DNA from: Thermodesulfobium narugense DSM 14796 | GTDB lineage: Bacteria > Thermodesulfobiota > Thermodesulfobiia > Thermodesulfobiales > Thermodesulfobiaceae | Direction of reading: 5' to 3' | Assembly (NCBI RefSeq): GCF_000212395.1 | Contig: NC_015499.1 | Span: forward strand, 124,001 to 188,000 | DNA: 64,000 nt | Shown here: positions 16,878 through 58,513 of the stretch, piece by piece | Numbering within the stretch: the stretch's first letter is position 1 | How the letters are laid out: every line of letters begins with the position of its first letter | Position numbers and translations under genes: made by a program | Notes under the pieces: model-generated | What the model saw: only the letters and a program-made list of their open reading frames with translations | Database searches by the model: none | What the model was told of the DNA's origin: nothing

Positions 16878-16907
16878 TTGACAGAATTTTCTAATCTAAA
16901 GTAAACT
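16878..16907 (+). promoter_or_regulatory. Promoter of SLH porin gene 1
   Basis: TTGACA (16878-16883), 18-bp spacer, TAAACT (16902-16907). The predicted start near 16914 gives a 5' leader of about 210 nt, matching the leader lengths deduced separately for the other two porin genes. The 50 bp between the GT9 gene end and this box hold nothing else I recognise. Confidence 0.6.
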
Positions 16908-16913
16908 AATATA

Positions 16914-17125
16914 AGCTCATTTCAGTTTAACTTTGACAACTAAATATAGTTTTGCTTCTCCCAAAGCTTTGAAAGGCTTTTTAAAGCCTTCAAAGAGCCT
17001 TTTACAGATGATCTCAATCTGCAAAAAAAGGAGGTGAAATCCCCCGAGTGCAAGAAGTGATTCTGTAAAGAGGCTAATATACGAAACAAAAAAAATTAAA
17101 CTTTCCTAAAGGGGGAAATGCAAAG
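16914..17125 (+). promoter_or_regulatory. Conserved structured 5' leader of SLH porin gene 1
   Basis: The leader shares most of its sequence with those at 28743-28948 and 30841-31056. Elements in order: a hairpin at 16967-16995 (7-bp stem, one bulge, then GGC/GCC and three A-U pairs); a second small hairpin CAGAT/ATCTG near 17006-17022; a perfect AAGGAGGTGA box at 17028-17037; a C5 run at 17041-17045; a six-codon ORF GTG...TAA at 17048-17068; and the real ribosome-binding site GGGGG at 17111-17115, 10 nt before the porin ATG. The C-run can pair with the G-run (6 bp here). See findings for a model. Confidence 0.65.
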
Positions 17126-17560
17126 ATGAGAAAATTCGCTATGTTTTTTGTAGTCGCATCTCTTCTCGTCGCCCTTGCAGTTCCCGCTATGGCAGGACCA
17201 TTCTCTGATGTGCCAGCTAATTCTTGGGCATACAAAGCAGTGCAAGATTTAGCAGCAAAGGGATTGGTCATTGGTTATGGCGACGGAACATTTAGAGGCG
17301 ACAGACTTGCCACCCGTTATGAGATGGCAATGGTAGTTGCAAGAATGCTTGATATGTATGAAAAAGGTCAAAATGCACAGGATCAAAAAATCCAGCTTAA
17401 CGCTAACGACATCGCAACACTTATGAAGCTCGCTGAAGAGTTTAAGTCAGAACTCGCCTCTCTAAACGTCAGAGTTGCAGCACTTGAGAAGAAGGCAGCT
17501 CTTGACACTGTAAACTTCACAGGAGATGCAAGGTTTAGACTTGCAAGCGAAAAGCTAACT
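16927..17560 (+). repeat. Inverted repeat copy A (porin 1 leader and 5' coding part)
   Basis: The sequence from about 16927 to 17560 is nearly identical to the reverse complement of 30418-31041; I read only scattered, mostly synonymous differences. The third, less similar copy lies on the minus strand at about 28330-28940. The repeats are paralogous genes, not an insertion element. Confidence 0.85.
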
Positions 17561-18700
17561 TATTATGCACTACCAGCAGGAACAATAGTTGCACCAGTAG
17601 TAAGTAGTAGTATAAATGGATGGATTGGTGGTCAAGCGCTAGCAGCACAGACAACTACACCACCAGATAAAAAGAACGATTCATTTATGCGCTATAGAAT
17701 CAGGTTAAACGTTGCAGCACCAGTTGCTGACAACATCAGCTTCAACGCAAGGCTTACAATGCAGAAGAACGCAGGTGTAAACGGGACAAATAATTACGCT
17801 AACCCTGTGACCGCTGCAAATTCAGGTTACATGTTAGATCAGAATACTCTATTCGTAGAGAGATCTTACATCACATGGACTCTGAACCCATATCCTGTTA
17901 CATTCGTCCTTGGCAGACTTCCTACTATGGATACAGGCAGATATTACAATGCGCTCTTCCTTGATGCCTCAGTAGAAGGCGGTTTGGTAGTATTCGACAT
18001 GTCAAACTTCCTTCCATCAACTTCAGTTTCAGCTGCATGGGTAAAGCTCTTTGACGCAGGCAACGTTACGTCAGCTCAAGAAGCTAGTGGTCTTAAAGAT
18101 AAGGACGTATATATATTAAACCTCAAGACAAAGCTCTTTGACACCTTTGGTTTAGAAGCAGACTACGGTTATATAGACAAGTTTACGTATTTTGGTGCTC
18201 TTTCAGGAGTTCCTGGCGTAACATCTGGTGCAAACGGCATCTATGGCAAGTATGACTGGTGGGCAGTAATAGGTAACTGGACTATGTACAACGTAAACAT
18301 GTGGGCAGGATATAGCGGCACATCCACCGACATGCCAAGAGAGGGAGCAACGGGTCCAGATCTTAGTGGAACACACTCTGTAAACGGCGGAGCATGGAGA
18401 GTAGGAGCAACTATTCCTCTTCCAGTCGGCGCTCTAACTGGTGACTTCTTCTTTGGCGACAACAAGTACTATAACCCATTCCTTTTTAACACATGGGATG
18501 CTGGAAAGTATAAGGATTACTACAATGTATACTATCAACTTCCAGTCGCAAAGAACGCAACCTTGACTCTTAACTACGACTATTGGAAGGGTAAGAGACC
18601 TTATAACACAGATTCAGTTAATGGCTACTACTATACTTTCAACCCAGATCAGATCAAAGACGATACAAGATACTACATTCAGATGGACGTAAAGTTCTAA
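17126..18700 (+). CDS. SLH-domain outer-membrane porin, copy 1
   Basis: A 524-residue secreted protein. It has a signal peptide (cleavage likely after AVPAMA, residue 23), then one SLH domain (about 25-75, FSDVPANSWAYKAVQDLAA). A coiled-coil segment follows (about 80-120), then a long beta-rich region with alternating hydrophobic residues ending in a terminal aromatic/Phe strand (YYIQMDVKF). This is the layout of OmpM/Slp-type porins, which anchor the outer membrane to the wall by the SLH domain and form a beta-barrel. The first 145 or so residues are almost identical to copy 3. The gene has a long regulated leader and a strong terminator, consistent with very high expression. Confidence 0.88.
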   Translation: MRKFAMFFVVASLLVALAVPAMAGPFSDVPANSWAYKAVQDLAAKGLVIGYGDGTFRGDRLATRYEMAMVVARMLDMYEKGQNAQDQKIQLNANDIATLMKLAEEFKSELASLNVRVAALEKKAALDTVNFTGDARFRLASEKLTYYALPAGTIVAPVVSSSINGWIGGQALAAQTTTPPDKKNDSFMRYRIRLNVAAPVADNISFNARLTMQKNAGVNGTNNYANPVTAANSGYMLDQNTLFVERSYITWTLNPYPVTFVLGRLPTMDTGRYYNALFLDASVEGGLVVFDMSNFLPSTSVSAAWVKLFDAGNVTSAQEASGLKDKDVYILNLKTKLFDTFGLEADYGYIDKFTYFGALSGVPGVTSGANGIYGKYDWWAVIGNWTMYNVNMWAGYSGTSTDMPREGATGPDLSGTHSVNGGAWRVGATIPLPVGALTGDFFFGDNKYYNPFLFNTWDAGKYKDYYNVYYQLPVAKNATLTLNYDYWKGKRPYNTDSVNGYYYTFNPDQIKDDTRYYIQMDVKF

Positions 18701-27098: not shown

Positions 27099-28742
27099 TT
27101 AGAAGTTTACGTTTAGCTCAAATTCGAATTCGTTGTAATTGTTTGCTTGAGATGGGTTGAAGGTATAGTAATATCCGTTTGTTGTGTCAGTGTTATAAGG
27201 TTTTTGACCCTTTTGGTATATGTAGACAAGAGAAAGGTGTGCGTTCTTTGCAACTGGTATTAGATAGTAGAAGTCTAAATAATCTTTATATCCTGTGCTT
27301 ACTGTGTTGTTGATAAATGGATTGTACCACTTGTTGTTTCCAAACCACAAATCAGTTCCAAGTGTGCCGACGAGGAATGGCATATCTCCACCAATTCCCC
27401 ATGCGCCGCCGTTTACGCTACTTATGCCGCTAATATTTCCGCTGCCGTCAAGAACTGGCATATCAGTTGATGTCCCTTCATAACCTAAATACATGTCTAC
27501 TCCATATATGTTCCAACTTCCAAGCACCAACCACCAGTCATACTTTCCATATTGACCGTTGTTTCCCGTTGTAAGAGCAGTAGCACCTGCAACAGGAAGA
27601 CCGGGTGTACCAGTTTGATTAGCACCTGAGTACAAACTGCCATAATAGGCGAACTTGTCTACATAGCCGTAATCTGCTTCTAAGTTAAAGGCATTAAATA
27701 ACTTTGTCTTAAGATTTAATATGTATACGTCTTTATCCTTATATCCATTTGCTTCTTGAGTAGAAGTAATAGAACCGTCGTCAAAAAATTTTGCCCAGGT
27801 AGCTGAAACGGTTGTGGATGGCAAGAAGTTTGACATATCAAATATTACTTGACCACCCTCAATGCCTTCGTCTAAAAACATGTTGTTGTAATATTGACCC
27901 TGATCCATAGTTGGCAGCCTGCCGAGTACGAACGTTATGGGATACGGATTGAGAGTCCATGTAATATATGATCTGTCAACGAAGAGCGTGTTTGAATTAT
28001 CCATGTAACCAGAAGTAGCTGCTATTACGGGATTATTGGATCCTCCTGCGGTATTGTGGCCTGCATTCTTTTCAACTACAAGCCTGCCGTTGAAGCTGAT
28101 GTTGTCTGCGACTGGCGCTGCGATGTTTAGCCTGATCCTATACTTCATGTAGGTATCGTTCTTTGTGTCCTGCAGCCCTGGATTGCCTGCATTGGTCATG
28201 CTTGGCGATACCGTGCCTATTATTGCTCCGTTTGTACTGGTATTATAGTCATAAATATCTTGCGTCACTGTGTATGTGTTGGCTTTTAAAGGACTAAGAG
28301 CATAGTAGTCCTGACTTGCAGTATTTAGTCTAAACTGTGCATCTCCTGTGAAGTTTACAGTGTCAAGAGCTGCCTTCTTCTCAAGCGCTGCAACTCTGAC
28401 GTTTAGAGAGGCGAGTTCTGACTTAAACTCTTCAGCGAGTTTCATAAGAGTTGCGATGTCGTTAGCGTTAAGCTGGATCTTTTGATCCTGTGCATTTTGA
28501 CCTTTTTCATACATATCAAGCATTCTTGCAACTACCATTGCCATCTCATAACGGGTGGCTGTTCTTTCGCCTCTAAATGTTGAGTCCCCATAACCAATGA
28601 CCAATCCCTTTGCTGCTAAATCTTGCACTGCTTTGTATGCCCAAGAATTAGCTGGCACATCAGAGAATGGTCCTGCCATAGCGGGAACTGCAAGAAAGGC
28701 GATTAGAGATGCGACTACAAAAAAGAAAGCTAATTTTCTCAA
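27099..28742 (-). CDS. SLH-domain outer-membrane porin, copy 2
   Basis: 547 residues, same architecture as copies 1 and 3: signal peptide (through AVPAMA), one SLH domain (about 25-75), coiled coil, beta-barrel with final strand FEFELNVNF. The first 130 residues are close to the other copies but not identical (MRKLAFF..., DSTFRGERTATR), and the barrel is more divergent, with different loops. It starts at TTG, not ATG. Leader is related but has a different ribosome-binding region (GGGGGATTTTAAAAG). Copies 2 and 3 are tandem on the minus strand with separate promoters and terminators. Confidence 0.88.
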   Translation of the reverse strand: MRKLAFFFVVASLIAFLAVPAMAGPFSDVPANSWAYKAVQDLAAKGLVIGYGDSTFRGERTATRYEMAMVVARMLDMYEKGQNAQDQKIQLNANDIATLMKLAEEFKSELASLNVRVAALEKKAALDTVNFTGDAQFRLNTASQDYYALSPLKANTYTVTQDIYDYNTSTNGAIIGTVSPSMTNAGNPGLQDTKNDTYMKYRIRLNIAAPVADNISFNGRLVVEKNAGHNTAGGSNNPVIAATSGYMDNSNTLFVDRSYITWTLNPYPITFVLGRLPTMDQGQYYNNMFLDEGIEGGQVIFDMSNFLPSTTVSATWAKFFDDGSITSTQEANGYKDKDVYILNLKTKLFNAFNLEADYGYVDKFAYYGSLYSGANQTGTPGLPVAGATALTTGNNGQYGKYDWWLVLGSWNIYGVDMYLGYEGTSTDMPVLDGSGNISGISSVNGGAWGIGGDMPFLVGTLGTDLWFGNNKWYNPFINNTVSTGYKDYLDFYYLIPVAKNAHLSLVYIYQKGQKPYNTDTTNGYYYTFNPSQANNYNEFEFELNVNF

Positions 28743-28940
28743 CTTTTAAAATCCCCCTTTAGGAAAGTTTAATTTTTTTTGTTTCGTATATTAGCCTCTT
28801 TACAGAATCACTTCTTGCACTCGGGGGATTTCACCTCCTTTTTTTGCAGATTGAGATCATCTGTAAAAGGCTCTTTGAAGGCTAATGCCATTCAAAGCAT
28901 TAAATAGTGGTGAATATTTAGTTATCAAAGTCCTTTACTA
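28330..28940 (-). repeat. Repeat copy B (porin 2 leader and 5' coding part)
   Basis: Related to repeat copies A and C; the leader region from 28743 to about 28880 is nearly identical apart from the bases next to the start codon, then diverges within the first hairpin while keeping its pairing. Confidence 0.75.
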
Positions 28941-28948
28941 CTAACACC
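28743..28948 (-). promoter_or_regulatory. Conserved structured 5' leader of SLH porin gene 2
   Basis: Same element order as the porin 1 leader. The first hairpin has changed sequence but keeps the 7-bp stem, a bulge at the same place and the GGC/GCC pairs, with loop ATTA instead of the longer A-U tip. The C5 run and its flank (AAATCCCCC) can pair perfectly over 9 bp with GGGGGATTT at the true ribosome-binding site, longer than in copies 1 and 3. Confidence 0.65.
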
Positions 28949-28954
28949 AGACAA

Positions 28955-28983
28955 ATAATATTATGTTTATACAACTTTGTCAA
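28955..28983 (-). promoter_or_regulatory. Promoter of SLH porin gene 2
   Basis: On the minus strand: TTGACA (28983-28978), 17-bp spacer, TATTAT (28960-28955). Gives a leader of about 205 nt. Confidence 0.7.
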
Positions 28984-29229: not shown

Positions 29230-30840
29230 TTAGAACTTTACGTCCATCTGGATGTAGTATCTTTGATCCTTATCGATCTGATCTGGGTTGAAGGTGTAGT
29301 AATAAGTACCATCGGTGTTATAAGGCTTTTTGCCCTTCCAGTAGTCGTAGTTAAGAGTAAGAGATGCATTCTTTGCGACTGGAAGAGTGTAGTATACGTT
29401 GTAATAGTCCTTGTATTCTGTGGTGCCCATTGTGTTAAGTATGAATGGGTTAAACCACTTGTTGTTGCCAAACCAAAAGTCGCCTGTAAGTGCACCGACT
29501 GGTAGAGGAATGGTAGCTCCTACTCTGAATGCTCCGCCGTTTACAGTGCTTGTGGCGCTAAGATTTGGACCGTTTGAAGTAGCTGATGGCATATCGGTAG
29601 ATGTGCCATTGTAGCCTGCCCACATATCTACGTTGTAGATATTCCAGTTACCTATTATTGCCCACCAATCATACTTGCCATAAACTCCATTTGATGCTGT
29701 TGTTGAACTCATAGGTTGATAGGCCGAAGCAAAATATGTTAGCTTGTCTACATAGCCGTAATCTGCCTCTAAGCCAAAGGTGTTGAAGAGCTTTGTCTTG
29801 AGGTTTAATACAAATACATCTTTGTCCTTGTAACCATTTGCTTCTTGTTGAGAAGTAACCGAGCCTGCATCAAAGAGCTTTACCCATGCAGCTGAAACTG
29901 ATGTGGATGGAAGGAAGTTTGACATATCAAATACTACCATGCCACCTTCTGTGCCTGTGTCCATAAACAGGTTGCTGTAATAAGCTCCTGCATCCATAGT
30001 AGGAAGTCTACCAAGGACGAATGTTACAGGATATGGATTCAAAGTCCATGTGATGTAAGATCTCTCTACATAAAGAGTGTTGTTGTCGTCGTTGTAACCG
30101 GTAAGTGATGCATACAATGGGCTACTGTTAGAAGAACCGTTACTATTTACGCCAGCATTCTTCTCCATTGTAAGTCTTGCGTTGAAGCTGATGTTGTCAG
30201 CAACTGGCGCTGCAACGTTTAGTCTGATTCTATAACGCATAAATGTATCGTTCTTTGCATCTGCTGGTGCTGCTGAAAGGTTAGCGCCACCATTTGGATA
30301 AGAAAGATTGCCTACTATGCCGCCTGCTGTTGAGCCTAAGGTGTCCCCTGTACCTAAGTCTGGTGACACAACATTAGGTGTTGAACTACTTGGTAGTGCA
30401 TAAAATGTTTTCTTTTCGCTGCCAAGTCTAAATCTTGCATCTCCTGTGAAATTCACAGTGTCAAGAGCTGCCTTCTTCTCAAGCGCTGCAACTCTAACGT
30501 TTAGTGATGCGAGTTCTGACTTAAACTCTTCAGCGAGTTTCATAAGAGTTGCGATGTCGTTAGCGTTAAGCTGGATCTTTTGATCCTGTGCATTTTGACC
30601 TTTTTCATACATATCAAGCATTCTTGCAACTACCATTGCCATCTCATAACGGGTGGCAAGTCTGTCGCCTCTAAATGTTCCGTCGCCATAACCAATGACC
30701 AATCCCTTTGCTGCTAAATCTTGCACTGCTTTGTATGCCCAAGAATTAGCTGGCACATCAGAGAATGGTCCTGCCATAGCGGGAACTGCAAGGGCGACGA
30801 GAAGAGATGCGACTACAAAAAACATAGCAAATTTTCTCAT
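29230..30840 (-). CDS. SLH-domain outer-membrane porin, copy 3
   Basis: 536 residues. Residues 1-145 are essentially identical to copy 1 (signal peptide, SLH domain, coiled coil). The barrel is also closely related to copy 1, with shared strands (FNARLTM, RSYITWTLNPYPVTFVLGRLPTMD, FLPSTSVSAAWVKLFDAG) and differing loops, which are likely surface exposed. Same leader and ATG start context as copy 1. Confidence 0.88.
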   Translation of the reverse strand: MRKFAMFFVVASLLVALAVPAMAGPFSDVPANSWAYKAVQDLAAKGLVIGYGDGTFRGDRLATRYEMAMVVARMLDMYEKGQNAQDQKIQLNANDIATLMKLAEEFKSELASLNVRVAALEKKAALDTVNFTGDARFRLGSEKKTFYALPSSSTPNVVSPDLGTGDTLGSTAGGIVGNLSYPNGGANLSAAPADAKNDTFMRYRIRLNVAAPVADNISFNARLTMEKNAGVNSNGSSNSSPLYASLTGYNDDNNTLYVERSYITWTLNPYPVTFVLGRLPTMDAGAYYSNLFMDTGTEGGMVVFDMSNFLPSTSVSAAWVKLFDAGSVTSQQEANGYKDKDVFVLNLKTKLFNTFGLEADYGYVDKLTYFASAYQPMSSTTASNGVYGKYDWWAIIGNWNIYNVDMWAGYNGTSTDMPSATSNGPNLSATSTVNGGAFRVGATIPLPVGALTGDFWFGNNKWFNPFILNTMGTTEYKDYYNVYYTLPVAKNASLTLNYDYWKGKKPYNTDGTYYYTFNPDQIDKDQRYYIQMDVKF

Positions 30841-31041
30841 CTTTGCATTTCCCCCTTTAGGAAAGTTTAATTTTTTTTGTTTCGTATATTAGCCTCTTTA
30901 CAGAATCACTTCTTGCACTCGGGGGATTTCACCTCCTTTTTTTGCAGATTGAGATCGTCTGTAAAAGGCTCTTTGAAGGCTTTAAAAAGCCTTTCAAAGC
31001 TTTGGGAGAAGCAAAACTATATTTAGTTGTCAAAGTTGGCA
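30418..31041 (-). repeat. Inverted repeat copy C (porin 3 leader and 5' coding part)
   Basis: Near-identical reverse complement of 16927-17560; the leader part is the same to within a few bases. Together they flank a segment of about 13 kb. Confidence 0.85.
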
Positions 31042-31056
31042 AAAACATTTCAATTG
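30841..31056 (-). promoter_or_regulatory. Conserved structured 5' leader of SLH porin gene 3
   Basis: Nearly base-for-base the same as the porin 1 leader, including both hairpins, the AAGGAGGTGA box, the C5 run, the six-codon ORF and the GGGGG ribosome-binding site 10 nt before ATG. Confidence 0.65.
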
Positions 31057-31062
31057 CTAGAT

Positions 31063-31091
31063 ATTATACACCTTTGTCAATTCTTGATCAA
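31063..31091 (-). promoter_or_regulatory. Promoter of SLH porin gene 3
   Basis: On the minus strand: TTGATC (31091-31086), 17-bp spacer, TATAAT (31068-31063). Gives a leader of about 215 nt, matching the other two porin genes. Confidence 0.65.
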
Positions 31092-56747: not shown

Positions 56748-56851
56748 TAGATGAAAAAATACTTGGTAGGGAGGTGAATGAATAGAGTAACTTGACACAA
56801 GCTTTTTGATTTATCCAGGGAAGAAAAATTTAAAACATGGAGGTTTAAAAA
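56748..56851 (+). promoter_or_regulatory. Flagellin 5' leader with upstream SD and possible CsrA sites
   Basis: About 100 nt. AGGGAGGTGA at 56768-56777 is followed at once by a five-codon ORF ATG...TGA (56778-56795), about 80 nt before the real start. The true ribosome-binding site TGGAGG (56838-56843) is 8 nt before the flagellin ATG. Three GGA-type sites (56768, 56817, 56837) are candidate CsrA sites, one covering the true ribosome-binding site. csrA itself is in this flagellar block. Confidence 0.5.
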
Positions 56852-58513
56852 ATGGCTCTTTACATTAACACGAACGTGTCTGCTATGCAGGCAAACTACA
56901 ATCTGTCTCAGACAAGTAACGCAATGAGTTCAAGTCTTGAGAAGTTGTCTACTGGTCTTAGGATTAACAGTGCTGCAGATGACCCGGCAGGACTTACAAT
57001 TTCAAACACCCTTCAGGCACAGATCAAAGGCTTAGGTCAGGCAATCCAAAACTCAAATGACGGCATAAACATGATTCAGACTGCTGCAGGTGCTCTTACT
57101 GAGGTTACAAACCTTATTCAATCCATGAGAACTCTTGCTGTTAGCGCATCAAACACTGCTGTAAACGATGTAGCTTCAAGACAAGCCGATCAATACCAGA
57201 TTAACTCTGCAATTTCCTCTTTGAAAAACATTGCAGCTACTACAGCATTTGGCAACGTAAAGCTCCTAAACGGTAACTTTGGCTACAATACTCAGATTAC
57301 TACGCCAAATGACATAACAAGTATGGGAGTAGCAGCAAGTGCTACAAATGTTCCTTATATCGGTAACATTTCAATGCAAATTAAACAGCAGGCTACTCAG
57401 GCATATATGACAGGTGCTTTTAGTACTGGTACTTATGCTTCTGGAACCGGAGGGACAGTTACCTTTTCAATCAATACACTTGATTCTGCAGGAAATATTA
57501 TAAATACGCAGGCTATTACAGCAACTATCGGCAGTGCTGATACAAGTGCTCAAGCTCTACAAGATATTGCAAATGCAATTAACCAGTTTAGTGGAACTAC
57601 AAACGTATTTGCTGCTACTAGTTCGGCTGGATATGTAGACCTTGGATCAGTAACTTATGGCAGTCAATTTAAGTTTTCTGTTTCCCCTGTTACGCTAAGT
57701 AGCGGTGTATCTGGTCTTGGCGGTGCTGTAGGAACTGCAGGATTGACTGCAACAGCAGGTCAGGATCTACAGGTATATGTCAATATAGGTTCGGGTGCTG
57801 CATCAGCAGGAGATTTACTTACTGCCAAATATATTGCAGGAAATAGCAGCGGAACTTCAGGCCAATTTGTACTAGCAGATACCGCATCTACGAACAAGTT
57901 CAATGGTTTTTATGCAAATCTTGCAGTTACCCAATCCGGTTCAGGAACTGGTATAAGTGGTACAGTCGCAGTTGCCAGTGCTGCAAGTGGTGAATTATCT
58001 GCTACTTTTGCGACTACTGCCAATCCGAACTGGACTACTGCGCAAGGTGTACTTAATACGGGAACGGGTGTTAACGTAGGCGTTCTCGCGAAAAACAGCG
58101 CTACCTTCCAGATAGGTGCAAATGCAGGACAGCTTGTTAGCATGGTAATCAACAACCTTACTCCAGATGCACTTGGATTTAGCGCTGGTCTTGGAGAAAG
58201 TGTTTCTCAAATAAACGTCCAGACACTCTCTGGCGCACAAAATGCGATACAGGTTTTGGATGCTGCAAACACAGAGATCTCAGTTATTGCATCCAGCCTT
58301 GGTGCCTTCCAGACAAACACCCTTCAGTCAAATGTCAACTCGCTTTCTATAGCACAAATTAACCTCTCTGCATCTAATGCTGCAATTCAGGATACCAACA
58401 TGGCTGCTGAGATGACCAACTTTACAAGACTTCAGATTTTGATGAAATCTGGCATAGCAATGCTATCGCAAGCAAACCAGATTCCATCTGCTCTATTAAC
58501 GCTTTTGCAATAA
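56852..58513 (+). CDS. fliC: Flagellin
   Basis: Filament protein of 553 residues. The conserved D0/D1 ends are intact: MALYINTNVSAMQANYNL and LSTGLRINSAADDPAGLTISN at the N-terminus, TNFTRLQILMKSGIAMLSQANQIPSALLTLLQ-type C-terminus. The central 300 residues (about 150-450) form a large Ser/Thr/Gly/Ala-rich variable domain with many potential O-glycosylation sites. Sigma-28 promoter and strong terminator make it a single-gene unit. Confidence 0.97.
   Translation: MALYINTNVSAMQANYNLSQTSNAMSSSLEKLSTGLRINSAADDPAGLTISNTLQAQIKGLGQAIQNSNDGINMIQTAAGALTEVTNLIQSMRTLAVSASNTAVNDVASRQADQYQINSAISSLKNIAATTAFGNVKLLNGNFGYNTQITTPNDITSMGVAASATNVPYIGNISMQIKQQATQAYMTGAFSTGTYASGTGGTVTFSINTLDSAGNIINTQAITATIGSADTSAQALQDIANAINQFSGTTNVFAATSSAGYVDLGSVTYGSQFKFSVSPVTLSSGVSGLGGAVGTAGLTATAGQDLQVYVNIGSGAASAGDLLTAKYIAGNSSGTSGQFVLADTASTNKFNGFYANLAVTQSGSGTGISGTVAVASAASGELSATFATTANPNWTTAQGVLNTGTGVNVGVLAKNSATFQIGANAGQLVSMVINNLTPDALGFSAGLGESVSQINVQTLSGAQNAIQVLDAANTEISVIASSLGAFQTNTLQSNVNSLSIAQINLSASNAAIQDTNMAAEMTNFTRLQILMKSGIAMLSQANQIPSALLTLLQ

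Follow-up and report, generated by a model that had tools for sequence, protein, structure and literature searches.

A hairpin-borne upstream Shine-Dalgarno sequence in porin leaders of Thermodesulfobium narugense: a candidate mRNA stabilizer or ribosome-loading site

Three genes for OmpM-like SLH porins lie in a stretch of 64,000 nucleotides from Thermodesulfobium narugense DSM 14796 (contig NC_015499.1, positions 124,001 to 188,000; here called the window), and each is preceded by a long leader with predicted hairpins. On balance, and by a small margin of belief, we read these leaders as carriers of a hairpin-borne mRNA stabilizer resembling the STAB-SD, of a ribosome-loading site, or of both, and as part of a genome-wide set of such sites. 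The most telling part of the porin leader is a strong Shine-Dalgarno (SD) sequence that lies upstream and has no start codon of its own. An earlier sequence-only reading of the window had assigned a shared leader to "all three SLH porin genes", which is right for the window but not for the whole genome (1,898,865 bases in a single contig), where about nine loci encode OmpM-like SLH porins.

The three leaders are present where the earlier reading had placed them, at 16914 to 17125 on the plus strand (copy 1) and at 28743 to 28948 (copy 2) and 30841 to 31056 (copy 3) on the minus strand, and they share one order of elements: a predicted promoter, hairpin 1, the long hairpin 2, UUUCCUAAAGGGGG with an SD, and the start codon. 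Provided that the predicted promoters are correct, the distances from transcription start to start codon are 212, 206, and 216 nt for copies 1, 2, and 3. In copy 1, the predicted promoter TTGACA-18-TAAACT, a consensus match only, spans 16878 to 16907 (–35 and –10 at 16878 and 16907). It is followed by hairpin 1 at 16967 to 16995, which has a CUUUGAA/UUCAAAG stem, a bulged A, and a GGC/GCC inner stem, and by hairpin 2 (AGCCUUUUACAGA...UCUGUAAAGAGGCU) at 16996 to 17075, which has a fold z score of –3.8 and encloses the upstream, or stand-off, extended SD AAAGGAGGUGA at 17027 to 17037, the GGAGG being located 96 nt before the start codon. The stretch UUUCCUAAAGGGGG at 17102 to 17115 combines an anti-SD-like sequence with the gene's own weaker SD, and porin gene 1 (SLH plus DUF3373) occupies 17126 to 18700, all of these on the plus strand. 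Copy 2, on the minus strand, has the predicted promoter TTGACA-17-TATTAT at 28955 to 28983 (–35 and –10 at 28983 and 28955), a hairpin 1 at 28873 to 28897 with the same 7-bp stem as copy 1, a bulged U, and a shorter tip, and a hairpin 2 at 28793 to 28872 identical in sequence to that of copy 1; its upstream extended SD AAAGGAGGUGA lies at 28831 to 28841 and the gene's own SD, GGGGG, at 28753 to 28757, before the TTG start at 28742 of porin gene 2 (27099 to 28742). Copy 3, on the same strand, consists of the predicted promoter TTGATC-17-TATAAT at 31063 to 31091 (–35 and –10 at 31091 and 31063), hairpin 1 at 30971 to 30999, hairpin 2 at 30891 to 30970, which again encloses the upstream extended SD AAAGGAGGUGA (30929 to 30939), and the gene's own GGGGG at 30851 to 30855, followed by porin gene 3 (29230 to 30840). 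Hairpin 2, with the 11-nt extended SD in its apical part, is the longer and better-preserved element compared with hairpin 1, and it had gone unmentioned in the earlier reading. The leader of the window, assigned to class A below, folds better than dinucleotide shuffles (z of –3.8 to –4.7, with at most 1 in 200 shuffles as good).

The products of the three genes match the Pfam families SLH and DUF3373. Their SLH domain and stalk (residues 4 to 153) match the OmpM chains 8bys and 8bym in sequence, at 1e-23 to 3e-22; the same two parts are matched in OmpM of Negativicutes (PMC10628300; PDB 8bym, 8bys) and in SlpA of Deinococcus (7zgx). Unlike in OmpM and SlpA, the part behind the stalk matches DUF3373. 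We describe the gene products as OmpM-like SLH porins with a putative outer membrane barrel.

Hairpin 1 had been taken by the sequence-only reading as the sign of selection on RNA structure, with a sequence that changed between copies while the stem was kept. The 7-bp stem, the single bulged base in the same place, and the inner GGC/GCC pairs are indeed found in all three copies, but the claimed change is not: the stem reads CUUUGAA/UUCAAAG in every copy, 10 of 10 pairs are unchanged, and the copies differ only in the bulged base (A to U) and in the tip. Because the stem is identical letter for letter, the window itself contains no compensatory change. The comparison set consists of four genomes of the phylum (G000, the window genome, to G003); family-level and phylum-level searches give the same set, and a wider contig scan yielded one MAG only, with the same contigs as G002. 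In the class A leaders of G003 and G002, hairpin 1 carries two G-U-type changes that keep the pairing.

Within each genome, the copies have been homogenized, with leader cores 96 to 99% alike next to promoters about 55% alike (99% and 53%, respectively, for copies 1 and 3 of the window genome), so the similarity of the leaders in the window mainly reflects gene conversion or recent duplication and is a poor guide to selection on structure. Between genomes, copy 1 and its G001 counterpart, matched by their promoters (about 80% alike), have leader cores that are 92% alike. A broken porin gene in G001 has a leader identical to that of an intact copy, and since both flanks differ (the promoter is 53% and the signal peptide 76% alike), this leader was homogenized as a unit. 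In this broken gene (L012, at 1406 kb of G001), a complete class A leader and the first 34 or so porin codons run into unrelated sequence. In the window, inverted repeats of 647 nt with 97% identity (16929 to 17575 and 30391 to 31037) span the leader and 5' coding sequence, and recombination between them could invert about 13 kb. Several contigs of G002 (MAG BP4.bin65) stop within a porin leader or signal peptide, which is to be expected if near-identical 5' ends break the assembly.

Evidence for selection on a structured leader comes instead from the leaders of other porin paralogues and of the three related genomes; to this extent the earlier claim stands, and its in-window covariation argument falls. 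The leaders fall into several classes. Class A comprises the three of the window in G000, three in G001, one in G003, and one that is cut off in G002; class B is found at 1429 kb of G000, in G003, and in G002; and class C is found at 1497 kb of G000, twice in G003, and in G002. These three classes are alignable (alignment A2, 13 leaders), and all have a long hairpin with an apical GGAGG, placed 80 to 97 nt before the start codon and followed by a second, weaker SD. Compared with 500 dinucleotide shuffles, the hairpins reach z scores of –3.8 to –4.0 in class A of G000 and G001, –6.8 and –4.1 in class B, and –2.1 to –3.5 in class C, with only –1.5 in class A of G003; the hairpins of class D leaders are not better than their shuffles. 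Class E leaders stand behind a tRNA gene, and class F consists of operon copies without a leader. In three genomes, the same layout is seen at L032 (1348 to 1419 and downstream), L021, and L050: a tRNA gene comes first, then a terminator-like hairpin, then the porin gene; an obvious promoter is lacking in between, and the porin gene is possibly cotranscribed with the tRNA.

In the 13 sequences of A2, 94.4% of the cells are paired, and five pairs have changed on both sides. The covariation score is 0.38; slid partners give 0.09 to 0.19 and shuffles 0.22. We regard the support for a structured leader as good, though not overwhelming, because the shuffle controls leave relatedness in and the both-sided changes stem from differences between the three classes. 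Changes within classes are one-sided, about 11 of them keeping and about 4 breaking the pairing in a register set by hand. A covariance-model search of the related genomes gave strong scores for porin leaders only. The class B leader of G002 (G002:C47), left out of model building, scored 71 bits for sequence and structure taken together, and in its outer helix the four pairs that have changed can all still form (again in a hand-set register). The sequence-only reading had not recognized the element as a known RNA family, and in agreement with this, no leader matches an Rfam 15 family at its gathering score, the best subthreshold match having 17 bits against a gathering score of 60. As judged from these alignments, the class A to C leaders are one family of structured 5' untranslated regions (UTRs) built on an undescribed hairpin family.

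The upstream SD is the sole element common to leader classes A to E, and it is missing from the operon copies. It has the general form AAAGGAGG and the class A form AAAGGAGGUGA; its GGAGG is present in 13 of the 13 class A to C leaders of A2, in invariant columns, and also in the class D and E leaders, whose sequences differ, whereas the operon-type copies of class F have no upstream GGAGG. Across classes A to C, in the G000 to G003 comparison, the upstream GGAGG is not followed by a conserved start codon. The leaders thus have one mark of a STAB-SD, an SD-like sequence in the 5' UTR without a start codon in reach, and the gene has a second SD. The 11 nt of AAAGGAGGUGA are complementary to the canonical 16S rRNA tail (–17.7 kcal/mol); this anti-SD is assumed because the host's own 16S rRNA gene was not recovered with model RF00177 in the near-complete assembly. 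With the same canonical tail, the predicted pairing energies are –15.7 to –18.1 kcal/mol for the class A upstream SDs and –10.8 kcal/mol for the gene's own SD of copies 1 and 2, so that GGGGG is the weaker of the two. In the predicted fold of class A, the upstream SD is largely paired, with a mean unpaired probability of about 0.2 to 0.3, a state less than ideal for binding a ribosome.

Stand-off sites of this kind are not confined to porins. The octamer GGAGGTGA occurs at 63 genome sites, compared with 23 for its reversed control. Classification of 61 sites gave 35 ordinary SDs and 12 stand-off sites at genes with a second SD; porin copy 2 is a thirteenth, left out of this count because sites repeated in an identical sequence context entered it only once. 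The stand-off sites lie 45 to 110 nt before a gene having its own second SD, and these genes encode porins (including two beyond the three of the window), flagellin, type IV pilin, DsrA, AprB, a cold-shock protein, a TauE-type protein, an MFS-like transporter, and one unnamed product. Judging by their functions, they are probably highly expressed. In the window, the flagellin gene (56852 to 58513) is preceded at a distance of 82 nt by GGAGGUGA (56770 to 56777, plus strand) with no porin hairpin, and GGAGGTGA stands 67 to 110 nt before dsrA (L153), aprB (L163), and the pilin (L128), cold-shock (L140), and TauE-type (L162) genes. In a 464-kb sample, GGAGGTGA ranks first among 168 permuted 8-mers in stand-off position (6 sites against a mean of 0.22, 3 of the 6 being the porin copies of the window); the next two commonest permutations are overlapping frames of GGAGGTGA itself, and the reverse complement is found 0 times. 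Plain GGAGG upstream of genes has no strand bias (16 versus 16 CCTCC, partly terminators), and a bias exists only for the extended GGAGGTG(A), with counts of 8 versus 0 and 6 versus 0.

G001 has orthologous sites at nearly the same distances before the flagellin, pilin, dsrA, aprB, TauE-type, cold-shock, L167, and porin genes. The aligned ortholog pairs had been preselected for the motif, so their identity in 8 of 8 positions tests nothing; what does count as a test is that the sites came up again in a separate search of the whole genome. At the flagellin site, the surrounding 24 nt have 58% identity between G000 and G001, and the ATG directly behind the site in G000 is absent in G001, so the site does not head a conserved short gene. 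The rpsL (L131) and glnB-like (L121) genes have a different arrangement, also present in G001, in which a single strong SD is followed by a short hairpin (CCUCUAAAAGAGG and GCCCGGCUGGGC, respectively) and then the start codon, as if the hairpin shortened the SD-to-start distance. A search for literature on upstream or tandem SDs in this phylum found nothing.

Ribosome-binding sites that lack a start codon are known as mRNA stabilizers mainly from a few Gram-positive genes. The STAB-SD of Bacillus thuringiensis cry3A (Agaisse and Lereclus 1996, as presented in PMC4113751) contacts 16S rRNA without initiating, and the bound 30S subunit stops RNase J1 (PMC4113751); in ompA and ermC, a strong SD is reported to stabilize the mRNA even without a start codon (PMC7509114). 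The genome encodes RNase J (TIGR00649, 529.8 bits against a cutoff of 400) and RNase Y (a match over its cutoff), and in other diderm Terrabacteria, OmpM-like proteins belong to the major components of the envelope (PMC10628300). These precedents, the two nucleases, and the abundance of related proteins elsewhere are why we lean toward stabilization and/or loading. A 30S subunit would bind the upstream SD but not initiate there, and the bound subunit and the hairpins would jointly block 5'-to-3' decay by RNase J and entry by RNase Y; alternatively or in addition, the upstream SD would serve as a loading site that feeds the weaker GGGGG at the gene. The mRNAs of abundant envelope proteins would thereby be long-lived and well translated. 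A pure standby site, which would raise translation and leave stability unaffected, we hold to be rather unlikely: the arrangement it calls for is indeed there, with a strong SD placed before a weak one that is predicted to be structured, but stand-off sites are also found at genes that already have a good SD of their own (pilin, aprB, and the class D porins), and the computed evidence otherwise fits standby and stabilization alike.

The partial pairing of the upstream SD may, in the folding model, leave room for a translational switch, in which a ligand, the temperature, or the ribosome supply would determine whether an anti-SD stretch pairs with the upstream SD or with that of the gene itself. 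Such a switch is unlikely. In full-leader folds, the SD next to the gene and the start codon are for the most part paired (class A SDs are unpaired at 0.03 to 0.24), and there are several candidate anti-SDs: UUUCCU just before the gene's own SD, CCCCC in the loop of hairpin 2, and UUUUGCUUCUCCC upstream of hairpin 1, which is predicted to pair with GGGGGAAAUGCAAAG in copies 1 and 3 and in G003. In class B, UUUUCCUU has an alternative to pairing with the SD in an upstream AAGGGGA, and dsrA has UCACCUU between its two SDs. However, these partners are not conserved across classes, and no long-range pairing is backed by covariation. The pairing of UUUUGCUUCUCCC with the SD was rejected as a general feature, since it is confined to some copies and absent in copy 2, which lacks UUUUGCUUCUCCC; classes B and C lack the CCCCC. 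A riboswitch or attenuator with a terminator was likewise discarded, as the three window leaders have no intrinsic terminator on the sense strand and match no riboswitch or other known aptamer family in Rfam. A more specific idea, that occupancy of the upstream SD as a decoy by free 30S subunits decides, via the intervening anti-SD stretch, whether the gene's weaker SD opens, is improbable; if true, such a ribosome-supply sensor would act, in an isolated bacterial phylum, genome-wide on the mRNAs of the major envelope, filament, and sulfate respiration proteins, with the porin hairpin as its most elaborate form. That the leaders have no RNA function and were simply carried along as the 5' ends of the genes were duplicated recently and spread by gene conversion would account for homogenization within each genome and for the 97%-identical 647-nt repeats over leader and 5' coding sequence; we think it very improbable, for the hairpin and the GGAGG persist in classes B and C and in the other species despite large sequence divergence, and the leader of the broken G001 copy has stayed identical to an intact one between flanks that differ. 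Least credible of all is that the upstream SD directs the translation of a leader peptide or attenuator. In the G000 copies, a GTG 18 nt after the start of GGAGG opens the frame GTG CAA GAA GTG ATT CTG TAA (MQEVIL), and class D of G002 and G003 has an ATG 9 nt after; yet the frame is absent from class A of G001 and G003, from classes B and C, and from class D of G000 and G001, and the flagellin ATG of G000 has no equivalent in G001. With the short frame behind the upstream SD not conserved, the peptide was rejected as a candidate.

The stabilizer and/or loading device that we favor appears to be in systematic use in a diderm phylum that branches deeply and is poorly sampled, before the genes whose products are probably most in demand. 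If confirmed, it would allow long-lived transcripts of such organisms to be predicted from sequence, and the paralogous leaders would form a natural set for testing how upstream 30S binding works.

The porin leaders resemble the E. coli ompA 5' UTR stabilizer in that a structured leader and, here as a prediction, ribosome binding are combined on the mRNA of what is, or for the porins is presumed to be, a major outer membrane protein. In the ompA stabilizer, which acts against RNase E, the gene's own SD is combined with a stem-loop at the very 5' end, and no second SD upstream is known. The porin leaders differ from it in carrying one, and no sequence relation between the two is claimed. The likeness to the cry3A STAB-SD lies in a strong, noninitiating SD in the 5' UTR about 100 nt before the gene of a presumably abundant protein, in a genome with RNase J. 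Unlike that of cry3A, the upstream SD of the porins is enclosed by a conserved hairpin, and a further hairpin precedes it; it is about 110 nt from the predicted 5' end, whereas the stable cry3A transcript has the element close to its 5' end. In addition, the putative stabilizer described here is common to a paralogous porin family and to core sulfate reduction genes of a diderm phylum.
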